Shown: positions 1-5,610 of the stretch, in pieces
Layout: every line of letters begins with the position of its first letter
Position numbering within the stretch: the stretch's first letter is position 1
DNA from: Planctomycetota bacterium
GTDB lineage: Bacteria; Planctomycetota; Phycisphaerae; WQYP01; JAJZKY01
NCBI GenBank assembly: GCA_021803885.1
Contig: JAJZKY010000235.1
Location: 1 to 6,995 of the forward strand
Direction of reading: 5' to 3'
DNA: 6,995 nucleotides
Made by a program: the position numbers and the translations under genes
The notes under the pieces: generated by a model
What the model saw: only the letters and a program-made list of their open reading frames with translations
The model's database searches: none
What the model was told of the DNA's origin: nothing

Positions 1-427
1 TGATACCTTTATTTATTAACGCAGCCTTAGCCGCCTCAACAGCGTCGTGGGCGTGCTCTTGGAGCCATTTTTTCGCCTGAATTATCCGTTTGGCCTCCGC
101 GATGTCCAGCCCGATCTGAGCAGGCGATTGGTGGCCCAAAACCACCGCCGCGCCGCGGAACCCGACAGCCTCATCGTCCGTGAGCGTTTCGCCTCTGGCG
201 AGCCGCAAACACGCGCCATAATACTCGCGTGTGGCCCCCTGATATTTGTTTTTTTCCAGTCCCTCCAGCCGCTCGCCCAGATCGTAACCAATTCGCTCTT
301 CGTCGCTCAAACTCAGGATTTGGCGCTCAAGCCCATTGCGCAGGACGTAGTCCCGCGCCACGCGCTTGACATTGCCTTGGTTGTCATAAATGTAGACAAA
401 TTCTGGTGTAGTTTCTTGATTTGGCAT
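1..427 (-). CDS. Hypothetical protein, C-terminus off the left edge
   Basis: An open minus-strand frame of 142 codons starts at 427 and runs off the left edge without a stop. It begins MPNQETTPEFVYIYDNQGNV. The visible protein is soluble and rich in charged residues. It carries a LSDEERIGYDLGERLEGLEK stretch, then a segment with Tyr and Arg (TREYYGACLRLARGE), and a helical Ala/Lys-rich end (AKKWLQEHAHDAVEAAKAAL). No signal peptide or membrane segment is seen. GAGG sits about 9 bases upstream of the chosen ATG; an in-frame ATG at 436 directly abuts that GAGG and is less likely. I do not recognise the family. It is the last visible gene of the minus-strand run and may be co-transcribed with the HTH-like gene ending at 625. 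The plus-strand frame over the same bases looks like a shadow. Confidence 0.7.
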   Translation of the reverse strand, partial: MPNQETTPEFVYIYDNQGNVKRVARDYVLRNGLERQILSLSDEERIGYDLGERLEGLEKNKYQGATREYYGACLRLARGETLTDDEAVGFRGAAVVLGHQSPAQIGLDIAEAKRIIQAKKWLQEHAHDAVEAAKAALINKGI

Positions 428-1040: not shown

Positions 1041-1436
1041 TTAAGTTGGTTTTCGTGCCGCAACCGCCGCCGGAAAATCGGGCGGTGGAATTGTTGCCGT
1101 TGGTGTTGATTGTCGCGCCGCGCAGGCCGCAACATAATCGGGCGCTGGAACCGTTACCGTGGGCGATAAAGTCGCCGGTTGTGGCGTTACCGCAGGCGAT
1201 AACACTGGCTCTGGCCCGGCAATGATTTTGGCCCGCAAGCCGTAGCCGCGCCACGCCATCTTGAGCAGGCGCCTTACCCGACAAACCACAGGTACGCCGG
1301 TATCGCGCCCGGTGAATTCAATTGTCCAGCGTTCCACCGGCGTCTTGGCCGGGCGCGGCGCGGGCGGAAACTTCAGAGTTCGTTGGCCGTTCCCGCCAGG
1401 AATGTTCCGTTTTGAAGTTGTTACAAAAAAGGACAT
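1041..1436 (-). CDS. Hypothetical protein with Pro/Ala repeat tail
   Basis: This 131-residue protein starts at 1436. GGAGA (1445-1441) is 4 bases upstream of the ATG, and the gene starts 15 bases after the preceding stop at 1452. The compact basic part, residues 34-72 (VERWTIEFTGRD, then VPVVCRVRRLLKMAWRGYGL), resembles short proteins I recall from PVC-group elements, with a W-T-x-E-F strand followed by a VRRLLK helix and a YGLR turn. No function is assigned to that pattern. Residues 76-129 are low in complexity and consist mainly of two tandem 20-residue Pro/Ala units with PxPD(Y/F) and AAR. The repeat tail looks like a flexible linker or a recently expanded segment. Confidence 0.7.
   Translation of the reverse strand: MSFFVTTSKRNIPGGNGQRTLKFPPAPRPAKTPVERWTIEFTGRDTGVPVVCRVRRLLKMAWRGYGLRAKIIAGPEPVLSPAVTPQPATLSPTVTVPAPDYVAACAARQSTPTATIPPPDFPAAVAARKPT
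1050..1169 (-). repeat. Two tandem 60-base units inside the 131-residue gene
   Basis: The units encode residues 90-109 (LSPTVTVPAPDYVAACAARQ) and 110-129 (STPTATIPPPDFPAAVAARK). Eleven of 20 residues match. A degenerate third copy may precede them (residues 76-89). The repeat has kept the reading frame, which supports the gene being translated. Confidence 0.6.
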
Positions 1437-1451
1437 TATGTCTCCATTATG

Positions 1452-2054
1452 TCAAACAGCCCCGGTGTCCGGGACATCGCACAGCCACCAACTTGCAATT
1501 TCATCGGCGAAGCCCTCCAGGGCAATGCCCTTGCCGTGCTTCAGCCGTAAATGATTGTCCACGTGGGCAAACAGGAACCAGCCCGCCGGGTAGCCGTGCT
1601 CGCGCACCAGGAAGTTCCAATTACGTTCTTCCACCTGGGCGGCTTGCCATACCTTGGTGCGGGTTGCGGGGTCGGGTTCCAGCCGGTTGAGAGCCGCCAG
1701 GGCAACCGAGCGGTGGGTTAGGGCTTGTGGCGCTCTTGCCGGTAGCGCTGCCGGGACTTGATCCGGCAGATTCTTGGTGGACAGGGTACATTGGGGCCCA
1801 TGCGCATAGGGGGGGGGCAGGGTACTTGTAGTGTTTTTTTGAGGCTCATAGCTCTTTTGATTTTTTTTAAGGGAATTGTCGGTTTTATTGAACAAATCGC
1901 TCAAAAAAGCCACCACATCAAGATTAACCCCACCCCTACCTATGCGCATGTGCCCCAATGTACCCCCTTTTTCTGAAATTCCGCGATTCATTGGGATTTT
2001 GGCCCGATTTTCGGGGGTACATGCGTTTGTCTTGGGGTATGAAGGTTCAGTCAT
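1452..2054 (-). CDS. Hypothetical protein, origin-like repeats in its 5' half
   Basis: The start at 2054 gives 200 residues. I chose it because GGAGG (2068-2064) sits 9 bases upstream and because ATGACTGA overlaps the ATPase stop by 8 bases, which fits coupled translation. Upstream in-frame ATGs at 2063 and 2096 lack a spaced ribosome site. Residues 1 to about 105 are low in complexity and are encoded by repeats: the inverted repeat gives GTLGHMRIG on one arm and PPYAHGPQCTL on the other. The C-terminal part is ordinary globular sequence (TKVWQAAQVEERNWNFLVRE, then GWFLFAHVDNHLRLKHG and FADEIASWWLCD). Aromatic and charged residues suggest a soluble, possibly DNA-associated protein. I do not recognise it. 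The gene also carries A7, A8 and C9 runs on the coding strand that could cause slippage. Confidence 0.65.
   Translation of the reverse strand: MTEPSYPKTNACTPENRAKIPMNRGISEKGGTLGHMRIGRGGVNLDVVAFLSDLFNKTDNSLKKNQKSYEPQKNTTSTLPPPYAHGPQCTLSTKNLPDQVPAALPARAPQALTHRSVALAALNRLEPDPATRTKVWQAAQVEERNWNFLVREHGYPAGWFLFAHVDNHLRLKHGKGIALEGFADEIASWWLCDVPDTGAV
1784..1965. repeat. 27-base inverted repeat with AT-rich centre, candidate origin structure
   Basis: The left arm 1784-1810 begins GGGTACATTGGGGC and continues through ATGCGCATAGG. The right arm 1939-1965 is its reverse complement with one mismatch (26 of 27). The spacer of 128 bases contains a second, perfect nested pair (TTTTTTGAG at 1835-1843, CTCAAAAAA at 1900-1908) and T-runs at 1834-1840 and 1861-1868. 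GGGTACATTGGGG shares its core with the direct repeats at 2011-2099. A strand-separating AT-rich centre between binding-site-like arms next to a replication ATPase gene fits a replication origin, but this is inference. A transcription attenuator within the run is the alternative. Confidence 0.65.
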
Positions 2055-2099
2055 GGGGTACATCCTCCGTGTTTTGAGCGTTTTCCGGGGGTACATGCG
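2011..2099. repeat. Iteron-like GGGGTACAT direct repeats
   Basis: GGGGTA(C/T)-type boxes on the plus strand start at 2014, 2034, 2055 and 2088, and three of the four read GGGGTACAT. The first and last are part of near-identical 15-base copies (TCGGGGGTACATGCG at 2011, CCGGGGGTACATGCG at 2085). Spacings of 20, 21 and 33 bases are near whole helical turns, as expected for protein-binding iterons. A related GGGTACAT box starts the inverted repeat at 1784 and a decayed GGGTACTT lies at about 1820. The boxes cover the junction of the ATPase and 200-residue genes. Confidence 0.6.
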
Positions 2100-3768
2100 C
2101 TGTGGTTTGGGGGCGTTCGGGGGGTGCGTCCGGAGAAAATCCTAAATCAACGCCGTAAACGCGCTGGATTCGGGCCAGGGGTTCGATTCCGCCGAGGTCA
2201 TAGAGCTTTTGGCCGTGGCTTTTCTTTGGTCGTAAGCTAAACCGGGCCAGAACGGTTGCGACGCCCTTGGGCGTAAATCGCTTCAATAATTCTGGTTCAT
2301 CTTCACGAGCAGGGATCAAGATTTCCTTGGCCGTTGGCCTGAACCCATCCTTAACTAATTGCGTCAAGGCGCGAAGTAAGGTTTCGTCCATCTCCCCAAC
2401 ACCGTCGTCGGCTTTATCTTCGATCGCGCGCCGGGCGTGATCCTGAACCAGTCCCAACAAGCCGATTACACCCAATGTCTCCAACCACCTTGCTAGCGCC
2501 ATGATCGGATGCCACAGTTCATAATCGCGCCCGGATATTTCAATGGGGCAAGCCGTGGTATCGGACGCCAAAGAGACAATCGACGATCCATATTCCAGCG
2601 CCACCTGATACAAACCATCCCGAAGCGATTGCCACCGCGCGGGGTCTTCGTCGATCCTGCGTTTCGGTTTTTCCGATCCGGCTGGGGAGCGGAACATAAT
2701 GATGCTGATACACCTATCCAATAGCGGCCCCGGCAACCCGGCGATGCAGGCCAGGGCCTTTGGACCATAAACATCAAACTCGATCAGGCGAAAAGTGTCG
2801 CCTTGGGCCTCCAGCCGAGAGGCGCGGCCGCCACGCTTGTAACCAGCCAGCAAAACACTTCGCAGTTCCAGGGTATCCGGTGTAGATTCCTTCAAGCGTT
2901 CCGCTTCATCCAAAATTAAAACGCCACCATGATTGTGCAGCGTTCGGAACAGGCACGGCGCCGACATATTGCTGGAACACAAAGGGCGAAATACCAAGCG
3001 GCTCAAAACCTCGAACAGTCGGCTTTTTCCAGAACCTTTGGGTCCGCCGGCATACAAGTAAGGAATTGCGTCCCACGCTGGATAAAAATATGTCAACATG
3101 ATCCAGAGCGCCAGCACGGCGCAGGTGCTTTCCGGTTGCGGTAAATCAAGGTAATAGGCGATGGCCTCGCAAAGGCCCGTAAACACTTCCACCGGATTGA
3201 CAGACGGTTCACCATCAAGCCATTGTTTCCGTTTTTTGCTACTCCAGCCGGGCAAAGTCCCGGCGGTTGGTGTATCAGGAATAGGATGAAAGAAAATCCG
3301 CCGGCCGCCAACGTCCAACGACTGCTCCAGCCCTCGTGCTTCACGCCGCCCATCCGCCCATTGAAGATACAACGCCCACCGGGCCTTTGGCTCGCCCGCA
3401 ACCAAAGTGGTTTGCGGAATTACCACGCCACAAACAGCAGGCGTCAAAAATAGTTCAGGACGCAGAACCAAAGACGCGGAAAGTTCCTCGCCCCAATTGT
3501 GCGTTCCCTCGGCCTTTGGTTTCGCAACCGCCGCCGCCTCAACCTCAAGCAACCTTTGAATTTCATTCGTGGGTATCGCCGGGAATTTTTTGGCGATAGC
3601 GGAAACAAAAGCGTCGCGGGCCTTCGCTGATCTTAAGTCGAGAATATCGGTATGTAGTGGCGTCCCGTTGGATAGAGTAACCGTGTGCCGTTTGCCGGAC
3701 AGCTTGCATTCCAGCGTCAGTTCGACGGTGGTGGAAATAGATGGCGTTTCGGTCACGCATGTAGACAT
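2047..3768 (-). CDS. P-loop replication ATPase, DUF3631-like
   Basis: This 573-residue protein has GGGAGA (3780-3775) 6 bases before its ATG, inside the end of the upstream gene (16-base overlap). Walker A is at residues 242-249 (GPKGSGKS) and Walker B at 284-288 (LILDE, within GGVLILDEAERL). An arginine in LLDRCISIIMF (349-359) is a candidate sensor or finger. Residues 411-430 (ISGRDYELWHPIMALARWLE) match the DUF3631 pattern of a degenerate Arg-Asp…W-x-P-hydrophobic helix, and residues 498-526 (FTPKGVATVLARFSLRPKK, then YDLGG) match its winged-helix-like end. The first 190 residues have no recognised primase motif. The family is found with phage and plasmid replication genes, so a helicase or origin-remodelling ATPase is likely. 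The last 25 residues are encoded by origin-like repeats and may be disordered. Confidence 0.85.
   Translation of the reverse strand: MSTCVTETPSISTTVELTLECKLSGKRHTVTLSNGTPLHTDILDLRSAKARDAFVSAIAKKFPAIPTNEIQRLLEVEAAAVAKPKAEGTHNWGEELSASLVLRPELFLTPAVCGVVIPQTTLVAGEPKARWALYLQWADGRREARGLEQSLDVGGRRIFFHPIPDTPTAGTLPGWSSKKRKQWLDGEPSVNPVEVFTGLCEAIAYYLDLPQPESTCAVLALWIMLTYFYPAWDAIPYLYAGGPKGSGKSRLFEVLSRLVFRPLCSSNMSAPCLFRTLHNHGGVLILDEAERLKESTPDTLELRSVLLAGYKRGGRASRLEAQGDTFRLIEFDVYGPKALACIAGLPGPLLDRCISIIMFRSPAGSEKPKRRIDEDPARWQSLRDGLYQVALEYGSSIVSLASDTTACPIEISGRDYELWHPIMALARWLETLGVIGLLGLVQDHARRAIEDKADDGVGEMDETLLRALTQLVKDGFRPTAKEILIPAREDEPELLKRFTPKGVATVLARFSLRPKKSHGQKLYDLGGIEPLARIQRVYGVDLGFSPDAPPERPQTTAHVPPENAQNTEDVPHD
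2064..2068 (-). promoter_or_regulatory. Ribosome binding site that decides the 2054 start
   Basis: The minus strand reads GGAGG, then nine bases (ATGTACCCC), then ATG at 2054. The ATG at 2063 directly follows GGAGG with no spacer and is therefore unlikely to be used. The site lies within the 3' end of the ATPase gene. Confidence 0.6.
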
Positions 3769-4265
3769 GGAGTATCTCCCATAATGTGATCCAGTGCCCG
3801 CCGGGCGGCGGTGATGGTGTCGTCGCTCACTTCGCTCGCCCGCGCCGCCATGATGATCCGATGCGCCGTGATAATGAGTTCACGTTTCCTGCGAGCTTCG
3901 AGGATGCGCCCGAGCGCGACCGGCCAGTGTCCACGCATCCGCAGCCCGGTGGCGAGGCGGACGATCCACTGTTTATGGGGTGTAGAGATTGGCCCCGCGC
4001 GCTCCAGCGCCGCCACGAATACCGCCGCATCAGCGCCGGGATCGGGGCCGTAAACATTGGCGAGCGTCGGCCATATCCAGCGGCATCGGCACTCTGTAAA
4101 CGCCGCAACGTCCACCCCGGCGGATATGGCCATCGGCACATGTCGCGGCTCCTGTAGGCAGGCGGCGACGATGTCCAGCTCCCCCTGCCGATCAGCAGGG
4201 ATACGCATCGCCCCATCCTCCACGGGCGCTGCTGGTATCGGCGCACGGATCACATATCGGCTCAT
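3753..4265 (-). CDS. Standalone DnaB N-terminal-like domain protein
   Basis: This 170-residue protein starts at 4265 by ATGA overlap with the preceding stop; GGAAAG lies about 8 bases upstream. Residues 25-163 follow the DnaB N-terminal helical pattern: an acidic helix with a short-loop LQEP (ELDIVAACLQEPRHVPMAI), an F/W-rich segment (AAFTECRCRWIWPTLANVY), D…A…FVAALERAGPI, then helices ending in ARRKRELIITAHRIIMAA and DDTITAARRALDHIMGD. It ends there, so the RecA-type helicase domain of DnaB is absent. In DnaB this domain forms the hexamer collar and contacts primase. Here it is followed at once by a different ATPase, suggesting a split or hybrid helicase. The fold call is from pattern recognition and has not been tested by profile search. 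Confidence 0.75.
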   Translation of the reverse strand: MSRYVIRAPIPAAPVEDGAMRIPADRQGELDIVAACLQEPRHVPMAISAGVDVAAFTECRCRWIWPTLANVYGPDPGADAAVFVAALERAGPISTPHKQWIVRLATGLRMRGHWPVALGRILEARRKRELIITAHRIIMAARASEVSDDTITAARRALDHIMGDTPCLHA

Positions 4266-4480
4266 GGCGTGCTTTCCGGCTCGTGTCGCGGATCCCGGCG
4301 TGGTCGGGCGGCGCGCCGGACTCGCGCGGGCCACCACGACTCGTGGCCATATCGCTCACACAGCACGTCGCCGAGCAGCACGGGGTCGCCGCCCCGCACT
4401 GGGCGGCGAGCCGGCGTCGCGAGGGTGCGGGCGGCGGCGTCGGAGCGGCGCGGTCGTGCGGTGGTGGTGGGCGTCGTCAT
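4262..4480 (-). CDS. Unknown 72-residue protein between xis-like and DnaB-N-like genes
   Basis: The ATG at 4480 overlaps the TGA of the excisionase-like gene (ATGA), and the stop overlaps the ATG of the DnaB-N-like gene (ATGA again). Both ends fit translational coupling, which is the main evidence that it is real. The protein is Arg/Pro/Ala-rich at both ends, with an ordinary middle (GDPVLLGDVLCERYGHESWW). No family is recognised. The region is very GC-rich, so long frames occur on both strands; a 206-residue plus-strand frame covers it but has no such coupling. A small DNA- or nucleic-acid-binding role is possible from the basic composition, but this is only a guess. Confidence 0.5.
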   Translation of the reverse strand: MTTPTTTARPRRSDAAARTLATPARRPVRGGDPVLLGDVLCERYGHESWWPARVRRAARPRRDPRHEPESTP

Positions 4481-4746
4481 GGCCGCACCGCCCGCCCGGC
4501 GTACTGGCCCGCGCGATCGCGCTGATGAGCCGGCCCGACGTACGCCGTGGCCGCCGGCAACCCGGCGACATACCGCTCGATGTCCGGCATGGAGATCCGT
4601 ATCTGGCGGCCCAGCCGCCGCGCGCGGATCGCGCCGGAGGCGATGAGGCGCTCCATTTGACGTATGGACACGCCTAGATATGCCGCCGTCTCTCGCTTAT
4701 CCAGGAGGCCGGCGGGTCGGCCCTCCGTCCGTGTGATCGTCAGCAT
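4477..4746 (-). CDS. Excisionase-like MerR-type HTH protein
   Basis: ATG at 4746, preceded by AGGAG six bases upstream, gives 89 residues. The frame is open further upstream to an ATG at 4887, but that start has no matching ribosome site and the added residues look non-coding. Residues 14-62 form the small winged-helix excisionase domain: LLDKRETAAYLGVSIRQMER, then LIASGAIRARRLGRQIRISM and PDIERYVAGL. These match the HTH_17 pattern of A-A-x-L-G-V-S, then the wing with R-R-x-G-R-x-I. Excisionases of this kind bend DNA at att sites and steer the integrase toward excision, and many also repress their own promoter. It is the first gene of the minus-strand run. A plain transcriptional regulator is the alternative. 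Confidence 0.85.
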   Translation of the reverse strand: MLTITRTEGRPAGLLDKRETAAYLGVSIRQMERLIASGAIRARRLGRQIRISMPDIERYVAGLPAATAYVGPAHQRDRAGQYAGRAVRP

Positions 4747-4761
4747 CGCTCTCTCCTGTGC

Positions 4762-4793
4762 TGTCCGGCGGACACGGGACACCACGCGGTGTC
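4762..4793. promoter_or_regulatory. Two palindromes in the leader of the excisionase-like gene
   Basis: TGTCC-GGC-GGACA occupies 4762-4774 and GACACC-ACGC-GGTGTC occupies 4778-4793, both with perfect arms and sharing the GGACAC/GTGTC theme. They lie 16-47 bases upstream of the ATG at 4746. Beyond them, at 4808-4848, is an AT-rich tract that probably holds the promoter; no good -35/-10 pair is certain. Paired palindromes before an xis-like regulator suggest operators for autoregulation. A leader hairpin in the mRNA is the alternative. Confidence 0.45.
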
Positions 4794-5031
4794 GCCAGTC
4801 TCCGCCTACACATCTATTACACTTTGACTTTTTTTTAGTGTTTTTTTCCGCCCCGTACGCGGCCCACGTGATGATTGTTCTATACATGCCCGCGCAAAAT
4901 GGCCGTATTCATTGCACAAATGACGCAGAATGAAATGATTCAATTGTACATGGAATTTTTACGGGATTTATTCTTTGGGGAGTTTTTGCGGGTGGTGGTG
5001 AACGGGCGGGCTCGCGGCTATTCAGAAAGTC
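4794..5031. other. Divergent intergenic region
   Basis: This region lies between the minus-strand run and the plus-strand 57-residue gene. It holds an AT-rich tract (4808-4848, with T8 and T7 runs) that fits the promoter region of the excisionase-like gene, followed by moderate-GC sequence to 5031. A plus-strand frame from 4875 starts with sequence that could be an amphipathic peptide (MTQNEMIQLYMEFLRDLFF) but continues into low-quality Arg/His-rich translation, so it is not called. No tRNA, attachment site or strong terminator is seen. Confidence 0.5.
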
Positions 5032-5283: not shown

Positions 5284-5522
5284 TTACCGGCGGCTTGTCT
5301 TGCCCCCGGCGGCCAGGGCCATGCCCAAGAGGGCCTTACGGATAGGCCCTGGAAGGCTTGGCCAGACTTCGGCCAGCCGGGCAAGTTCTGGGTCGGTTTG
5401 TCCCTTATTTGTCCCACGGGGTTTTTCGGAAAACGCTAAACCCTTGATTTTACATGACTTAGAGCGATTCTGGCAAAGGACTGAAAATCCTTGTGTCGCC
5501 GGTTCGATTCCGGCTCTGCCCA
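5284..5522 (-). pseudogene. Orphan C-terminal tail of the element's tyrosine integrase
   Basis: A minus-strand frame crosses the tRNA-Phe remnant as AGIEPATQGFSVLCQ, continues through a basic segment (NRSKSCKIKG), and ends in DPELARLAEVWPSLPGPIRK followed by ALLGMALAAGG before the stop at 5284. Integrases whose attP lies at their own 3' end read the antisense of the tRNA near the C-terminus, and those of PVC bacteria often end in WPxLPxxIRxxI. No catalytic domain is next to it: to the right is chromosome. It is therefore interpreted as the 3' end of int, separated from its body by the integration crossover and restored only in the excised circle. It is not a decayed gene. Transcription here would be meaningless unless it starts in the flank. 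Confidence 0.7.
5474..5522 (+). other. attR: 3' remnant of tRNA-Phe (GAA)
   Basis: The segment holds a complete anticodon stem (5476-5480 pairing 5488-5492), loop CTGAAAA with anticodon GAA at 5483-5485, variable loop 5493-5497, T arm (GCCGG 5498-5502, TTCGATT loop, CCGGC 5510-5514), acceptor 3' strand TCTGCCC 5515-5521 and discriminator A 5522. The expected 5' strand GGGCAGA and D arm are absent upstream, so this is not a functional tRNA. A 3'-end remnant marks the element end that is distal to the intact tRNA. The tRNA reads rightward, so the element lies to the left and the intact copy should be at the left end. Confidence 0.85.
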
Positions 5523-5610
5523 GTTCTCCAGAATGTTCGGAAAAACACTCGCAAAGCCACATATTTTTGGATTTTCGCGTGGCGTGTTGACCGTAGGGGC
5601 AATCGCTTCG
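5523..5610. other. Chromosomal intergenic spacer
   Basis: These 88 bases separate the tRNA remnant from the stop of the oxidoreductase gene. In the original chromosome this was the spacer downstream of tRNA-Phe. No hairpin with a T-tract is evident for either direction. Confidence 0.5.

Follow-up and report, generated by a model that had tools for sequence, protein, structure and literature searches.

Iteron origins that are bound by the C-terminal domain of a helicase are already known from SaPI Rep and from Cch2 of SCC, and origins that lie inside genes are known from lambda, whose O protein is not itself a helicase. SaPI Rep is a helicase with a C-terminal origin-recognising domain and with iterons directly downstream of its gene, and Cch2 uses its C-terminal domain to bind direct repeats that lie downstream of its gene (PMC7581432, in excerpt). 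In PICI origins two sets of iterons flank an A+T-rich region 3' of rep (PMC6092414, in excerpt), and in the pRN1 family of Sulfolobus an essential element lies within 166 bp downstream of the replication protein gene (PMC4234260, in excerpt). The DUF3631/RepAM initiators of actinomycete ICEs have been predicted to be of the rolling-circle type (PMC3218068, in excerpt). We found no published account of the origin of the helicase family described below; the original work on pMEA300 lay outside the scope of this study, and repeats near repAM may already have been published.

The window, by which we mean the whole stretch of 6,995 nucleotides analysed here, comes from a Planctomycetota bacterium and corresponds to the minus strand of contig C71 in a draft genome (G000) of 2.8 Mb and 86 contigs. 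Read along its minus strand, it carries an excisionase-type helix-turn-helix gene (4743-4477), an ORF (4337-3753), an ATPase gene (3768-2047), an array of short repeats, and a further gene. The ATPase gene product is modelled with an MCM/SF3-like AAA+ helicase fold ending in a winged helix (AlphaFold, pLDDT 90), and a two-armed array of facing short boxes lies directly behind the winged-helix codons. By examining this locus and its relatives, we hypothesize that the array is quite likely the replication origin of an integrative mobile element, with boxes recognised by the C-terminal winged helix of the MCM-like helicase. The features are as follows.

5473-5544, plus strand: 72-bp attachment site including the 3' part of tRNA-Phe, identical to G000:C69:10021-10092
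4477-4743, minus strand: excisionase-type helix-turn-helix protein (HTH_17, E 6.3e-10; TIGR01764, E 1.8e-9)
3753-4337, minus strand: ORF upstream of the helicase, no family match ("DnaB-N-like" being the label of the first-pass annotation)
2047-3768, minus strand: predicted MCM/SF3-like AAA+ initiator helicase, 573 aa
2155-2331, minus strand: C-terminal winged helix, residues 480-538, proposed iteron reader and putatively DNA-binding
2088-2099, plus strand: box, left arm, in the C-terminal codons of the ATPase (HVP)
2055-2063, plus strand: box, left arm, within the last ATPase codons (DVP)
2034-2040, plus strand: weaker box GGGGTAT, beyond the ATPase stop
2014-2025, plus strand: box, left arm, inside the next ORF; also in the related locus L007
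1967-2013, no strand: inter-arm spacer, its 43-base core 60% A+T
1933-1966, minus strand: right arm, in opposite orientation, made up of two clear units plus a third that is degenerate; same place in L007
1817-1932, no strand: A+T-rich stretch (63%), candidate unwinding region
1784-1816, plus strand: distal arm, located in the next ORF and repeating the right arm in inverted form; two boxes here in L007 too
1452-2054, minus strand: next gene, its ORF open across the array

Comparison with described systems

The window family shares with SaPIs and PICIs a set of repeats immediately 3' of a helicase gene, for which we infer an origin role, and an arrangement in two box sets, found in 33 of the 35 loci with listed arms. 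It differs from them in its planctomycete hosts, in a likeness that is one of fold, with no sequence relation found in a profile search of PDB chains, and in its spacer, which is 60% A+T in the window yet shows no significant excess over 33 loci. The protein of pXZ1, a plasmid that we take to belong to the pRN family, is a distant homologue of the window helicase. With pRN1 the window has in common a replication protein with a downstream element, whereas the pRN1 element is a 100-nt stem-loop (PMC4234260, in excerpt) and no box array lies behind the pXZ1 gene. The likeness to SCC, with its MCM-like Cch and its Cch2, consists of an MCM-like AAA+ helicase on an integrative element; SCC carries Ccr recombinases, whereas the integrase here is of the tyrosine type and not of the Ccr type, and the Cch2 iterons are 5-nt units in a 23-bp direct-repeat region (PMC7581432, in excerpt), as against units of 9-10 bp in two inverted arms here. 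Lambda ori resembles the window in that its iterons fall within a translated gene, one of the initiator operon, and differs in that these are 19-bp inverted repeats bound by O dimers (PMC5043065, in excerpt).

The mobile element and its helicase

The second copy of the 72-bp attachment site (G000:C69:10021-10092) overlaps a complete tRNA-Phe gene adjoining an integrase ORF that resembles tyrosine recombinases in profile searches (XerC model, E 1.5e-10, short of the curated cut-off). Of 35 other loci searched, many of them short, 10 carry ORFs related to this integrase 3' of the array. The integrase ORF itself (locus L059, 10009-11517, minus strand) ends inside tRNA-Phe (9998-10070) and crosses the attachment site at 10021-10092, antisense to the 3' end of the tRNA, so that excision would change its last residues. 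The left edge of the window (1-31) recurs at or near many contig ends, about 30 bp of it being common to contigs C85, C68, C27, C81, C48, C21, C69 and C83 of the same genome, and the ends of C69 and C71 share 126 bp at 99%. These shared 30 bp are probably the terminus of an insertion sequence that interrupts the element next to its integrase, and the element is therefore broken in the assembly. No FtsK/SpoIIIE-type Tra protein was found among the ORFs scanned of this broken element.

The helicase matched no family in Pfam or NCBIfam; PF12307, the model for DUF3631, was reached by only two of 26 family members, and weakly (best E 0.011), and PHROGs gave a single weak match, to a family of unknown function (E 0.00047). 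A profile search of PDB chains gave nothing meaningful (best E 0.3), and a Foldseek comparison of the model matched 7ola_B at E 3.4e-4, a similarity of fold to SaPI Rep with no match in sequence. The winged helix is modelled as helices at residues 480-490 and 500-508, strands at 515-517 and 520-522, and a helix at 529-538. When the window protein alone was used as query, viral contigs yielded nothing and genome contigs yielded 25 pattern stretches with no relative among them; a scan of viral contigs with the alignment yielded 148 stretches, again with no relative. Several relatives (L045-L056, L088) have ORFs that are otherwise different but show a weak match to the first 90 or so residues of the helicase, an N-terminal part that is perhaps a shuffled module.

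The array in the window

The first-pass annotation had pointed to four GGGGTA(C/T) boxes on the plus strand at 2014, 2034, 2055 and 2088 (steps of 20, 21 and 33), to an inverted repeat and to an A+T-rich region, all at the junction of an ATPase gene and the next gene, and each of these is borne out by the present analysis. The boxes lie at the coordinates given, with a fifth GGGGTAY copy, inverted, at 1960-1966; all five matches of the window fall within 135 bp, as compared with 1.16 expected in a shuffled window, and five were reached in 3 of 200 shuffles. The inverted repeat comprises 33 nt with 91% complementarity (arms 1784-1816 and 1933-1965), the inner 27 nt matching at 26 positions as counted by eye, and when the whole window is scanned, a 24-nt inverted pair of the array (23/24) comes out at the top. 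In the distal arm (1784-1810) the homologue P0121 has V where the window has G, which would be consistent with a perfect inverted repeat in other strains. The stretch between the arms (1817-1932) is 63% A+T against 41% for the window, and the junction is that of the ATPase gene (2047-3768, minus strand) with an ORF on the same strand ending at 1452. An Rfam search gave no match.

Many copies of the repeat elsewhere in the host genome had been named as a ground against an origin. The box is not scattered in this way, since the pattern GGGGTACATNS has 10 matches in the whole draft genome, four of them within a single 143-bp stretch at the window array; the same pattern read backwards, as a control, has four matches in the draft genome. 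Taken by itself the window array is nevertheless not extreme in three tests: three of 33 control windows were as good by box counting, the pair score (400-bp windows) ranked fifth among 112 control windows, and a two-arm scan restricted to the 330 bp that follow the winged helix gave p 0.105. To this extent the array could be a chance product of low-complexity or repeat-prone coding sequence, and the strong evidence is comparative.

Recurrence of the array in related loci

Behind the winged-helix codons of planctomycete relatives lie tandem boxes of 9-10 bp, which recur on the opposite strand after a spacer. The second ground against an origin, absence of the repeats from relatives that keep the ATPase gene, is contradicted by this recurrence at the same place. 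The two-arm scan, which compares the 330 bp behind the winged helix with other windows of the same locus, was applied to 29 loci chosen without regard to repeats; 21 were individually at p<=0.05, with a combined Fisher value of 6e-16, the smallest p attainable depending on how many control windows there were and the loci being not fully independent (L030 and L032 are near-identical). When the window and later finds were included, 22 of 36 loci were at p<=0.05 (Fisher 6e-17), and 23 of 38 (Fisher 7e-17) when two loci first omitted, L102 and L110, were restored at p 1.0 and 0.043. In an earlier whole-locus scan the pair near the ATPase end ranked first in 21 of 34 loci (three being duplicates), and two simpler statistics, both weak in GC-rich loci, gave rank 1 for the pair score in 10 of 30 loci and no control as good for the box count in 9 of 30. 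The 29 loci remained from 33 after removal of L035, L037, L038 and L039, in which the match ended before the C-terminus. Duplicates (L041, L042, L043, L093-L098) were also dropped, as were the later loci L103 and L105 (contig ends), L109 and L112 (match stopping before the winged helix), L106 (masked), and L107 and L108 (no winged helix found), and the array scan left out loci L060-L088.

The arrays thus stand at one place and in one architecture, with boxes that differ from element to element. It is this result, significant over 29 loci against other windows of the same loci and made up of different boxes at one place, that already contradicts the chance explanation, which we regard as scarcely credible. 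The array is real and conserved, and it is probably a replication origin.

The exceptions to the two-armed layout are L013 and L020, with a single arm each, L028, with a weak array, and, outside the 35 loci, L102 with a single arm. In L025, also outside the 35, and in L043 the helicase is truncated within the winged helix and followed by what by eye is integrase-like sequence, with no array. An A+T-rich spacer as a general feature is unsupported, the mean A+T excess between the arms being 0.021 across 33 loci (p 0.14). A slight A+T excess of 0.038 (p 0.0004) is seen in the 100 bp that follow the array, although the start of the next gene may be all that it reflects. Between the arms of L104 and L111 a G-rich hairpin and a TTTTCTTTTCTT(A/T)ATATAAGG stretch can be seen by eye, and this region appears, also by eye, to be a better candidate unwinding element than those of other loci.

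Coding overlap and the next gene

The first-pass annotation had placed the array within coding sequence and taken it to force a low-complexity half upon the next protein. The embedding is real in the window and is not universal: 17 of the 35 loci have the array entirely past the ATPase stop, 10, the window among them, have it across the stop, and 8, among which are the two with a single arm, have it inside the ATPase frame. The second claim is right in part only. The next ORF is indeed open across the array in the window, L007, L030, L032 and L033. Three of four homologues of the next protein, its own cluster excluded (P0122, P0123 and P0125), have their starts, judged by eye, near window residue 43, and the small genes of two loci discussed below (L115 and L113) start there too, so that the upstream extension of the ORF may not be translated. 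The "residues 1-105" of the annotation were counted from an ATG at 2096, and a likelier start is at 2054 or later; a start at 2054 overlaps the ATPase stop and has GGAGG nine bases upstream. An origin inside a translated gene had further been called unusual, but it has a precedent in lambda ori, within gene O (PMC5043065, in excerpt).

Between the window and L007, 37 of 126 bases differ over the 42 residues that cross the array (9/11/17 by codon position), and 77 of 144 bases over the 48 aligned codons that follow, a poorly aligned part; these differences fit constraint on the DNA more than on the protein. Of the 120 best-listed homologues, 13 have lag-3 peptide repeats in the protein tail behind the winged helix; repeats of this kind fill 51 of the 1266 windows taken in tails, against 14 of 65268 in the body. 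Examples, taken from the protein only, are VPHVPQVPP, GHVGHVGHV, RPKRPKRP and GGESGESGE. Boxes of 9 bp read in frame would give such repeats.

The array as a possible operator or partition site

In 17 of 35 loci a distance of 14-36 bp separates the array from the start of a small gene, and this proximity of the right arm to a gene start is what one would expect if the boxes bound the ATPase or the next protein and regulated the next gene rather than replication. We consider such an operator unlikely, since in 18 of 35 loci the arms extend into the ATPase frame or are contained in it, and as this type of small gene does not follow the array in L019, L028, L102 and L111, judging from ORF lists and sequence. 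A promoter consensus scan of positions 1400-4900 returned no promoter-like site, which is weak evidence either way. A further argument comes from two loci, L115 (G000:C1, L115:3566-5779, minus strand), a second related element in the same genome, and L113, in a genome of the same genus, where homologues of the window's next gene (E 4.7e-35 and 3.2e-30) follow a different ATPase. The only similarity detected between the L115 ATPase and that of the window is a short N-terminal match (E 0.00018); the L113 ATPase frame had no match in that comparison, and a separate genome search placed a weak N-terminal match on it. At these junctions stand GCCGAAA boxes, which account for 9 of the 15 copies in the L115 locus (12 kb, both strands) and 5 of the 6 in the L113 locus (5.8 kb, one strand). 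Homologous small genes behind a different ATPase therefore have unrelated boxes, and the box goes with the ATPase and not with the next gene.

The same finding bears on a partition (parS-like), packaging or resolution site, since short repeats near a small protein would fit such sites too. The box follows the helicase and not the small gene, the array directly adjoins the winged-helix codons, and no partition family was matched among the ORFs scanned, in an element incomplete in the assembly; we hold this explanation to be highly improbable next to that of a helicase-read origin.

Divergence of boxes and winged helices

Box classes read from the arms include GTRCCC, GTRCCGCA, CGCCACC, TTGTCACT, GTGACCC, CACCCAAG and CGGCACTAC, among others. 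Box similarity is related to winged-helix similarity (Spearman 0.35 over 35 loci), and in partial Mantel tests (n=35), for which arms were picked by eye, L025 was omitted as having no array and the loci were not independent, the relation of box to winged helix given the ATPase core was r 0.29 (p 0.0004), as against r 0.09 (p 0.19) for box and core given the winged helix. At least 16 changes of box class are needed on the core tree and at least 15 on that of the winged helix, and the trees therefore do not tell covariation from common descent. All four GTRCCGCA loci share a wing insertion found in no other of the 35, and four of the five CGCCACC-type loci (not L101) share RTV[ST]x[RK]L and a two-residue insertion. 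Neighbours on starred branches of the core tree that have unlike boxes (L010/L014, L104/L111, L024/L026, and L033 versus L030/L032) differ in the winged helix or its wing too. The proposal that box and winged helix change together is, on these sequence comparisons, supported but not settled.

Related arrays in actinomycetes

A tblastn search of 72,556 plasmid records returned 12 weak relatives, and distant homologues were inspected in 8 of these 12 and in one of two phage records. Matches to Streptomyces DUF3631 proteins had E values of 8e-10 and 5e-8, and two-armed arrays lie behind DUF3631-type genes on two circular Streptomyces plasmids and at a Nonomuraea locus, the three examined; of these loci L123 and L124 were chosen after L120 had shown an array, and the reading of L124 was by eye, with no control. 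L120 has 11 exact TCCGCTACC core boxes, against four in the best control window (0 of 39 as good), and L123 has 10 of its 11 TCCGCTACC copies at the place of the array, while the boxes of L124 are AGCCGTAAY, read by eye as SRNSRNSRNSRN. Both L120 and L123 carry a helix-turn-helix gene and an integrase downstream. No array was found behind the homologues in Thermus (2), Acinetobacter (2), Sulfolobus pXZ1 and Pseudomonas phage Phipami28, six of the seven distant homologues in the scan that included L120.

RepAM is thus linked to the window family by weak tblastn kinship and by the same array layout, and the rolling-circle prediction in print for it (PMC3218068, in excerpt) differs from the helicase-initiator reading given here. 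From the modelled fold and the array we infer that RepAM may be a helicase-initiator rather than of the rolling-circle type. The printed prediction, together with the capacity of the inverted repeat to form a hairpin, raises the question of whether the window array is itself a rolling-circle double-strand origin or nick hairpin. This appears very unlikely, given that the initiator model is MCM/SF3-like, that tandem boxes on both arms suit the binding of a multimer, and that no Rep, relaxase or HUH family was found among the ORFs scanned, the element being incomplete in the assembly.

A model of the proposed origin and its implications

SaPI Rep and Cch2 work by C-terminal recognition of iterons (PMC7581432, in excerpt), and the same working is the best reading here. 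In the proposed mechanism, the winged helix of the MCM-like helicase would bind the DNA by recognising boxes of 9-10 bp; because the arms face each other, the excised circle would receive two hexameric helicase rings in head-to-head orientation, and replication would start outward from the array in both directions. Since the boxes run into the ATPase tail and the next ORF, the same DNA encodes a protein tail and would form a binding site.

What is new here is the helicase family, the 9-bp iterons that would encode tripeptides, and a hint against RepAM as a rolling-circle initiator. More tentatively, and with the odds somewhat against it, Planctomycetota and Actinomycetota may share a widespread class of replicons in which an MCM-like/DUF3631 helicase has its cognate origin at the end of its gene, iterons of three codons (9 bp) that overlap the gene show up in the protein as tripeptide repeats, winged helix and iterons form a co-changing cassette, and RepAM is theta-replicating. 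If this is true, RepAM elements replicate by a helicase-driven theta mechanism and not by the rolling circle proposed for them. The arrays also open the printed prediction on RepAM to a direct test. For a large, unannotated family of planctomycete mobile elements, the arrays mark candidate origins. About 35 helicase-origin pairs with different recognition sequences could expose a recognition code of winged helices directly, and helicase, proposed reader domain and site together have the look of a single, diversifying unit.
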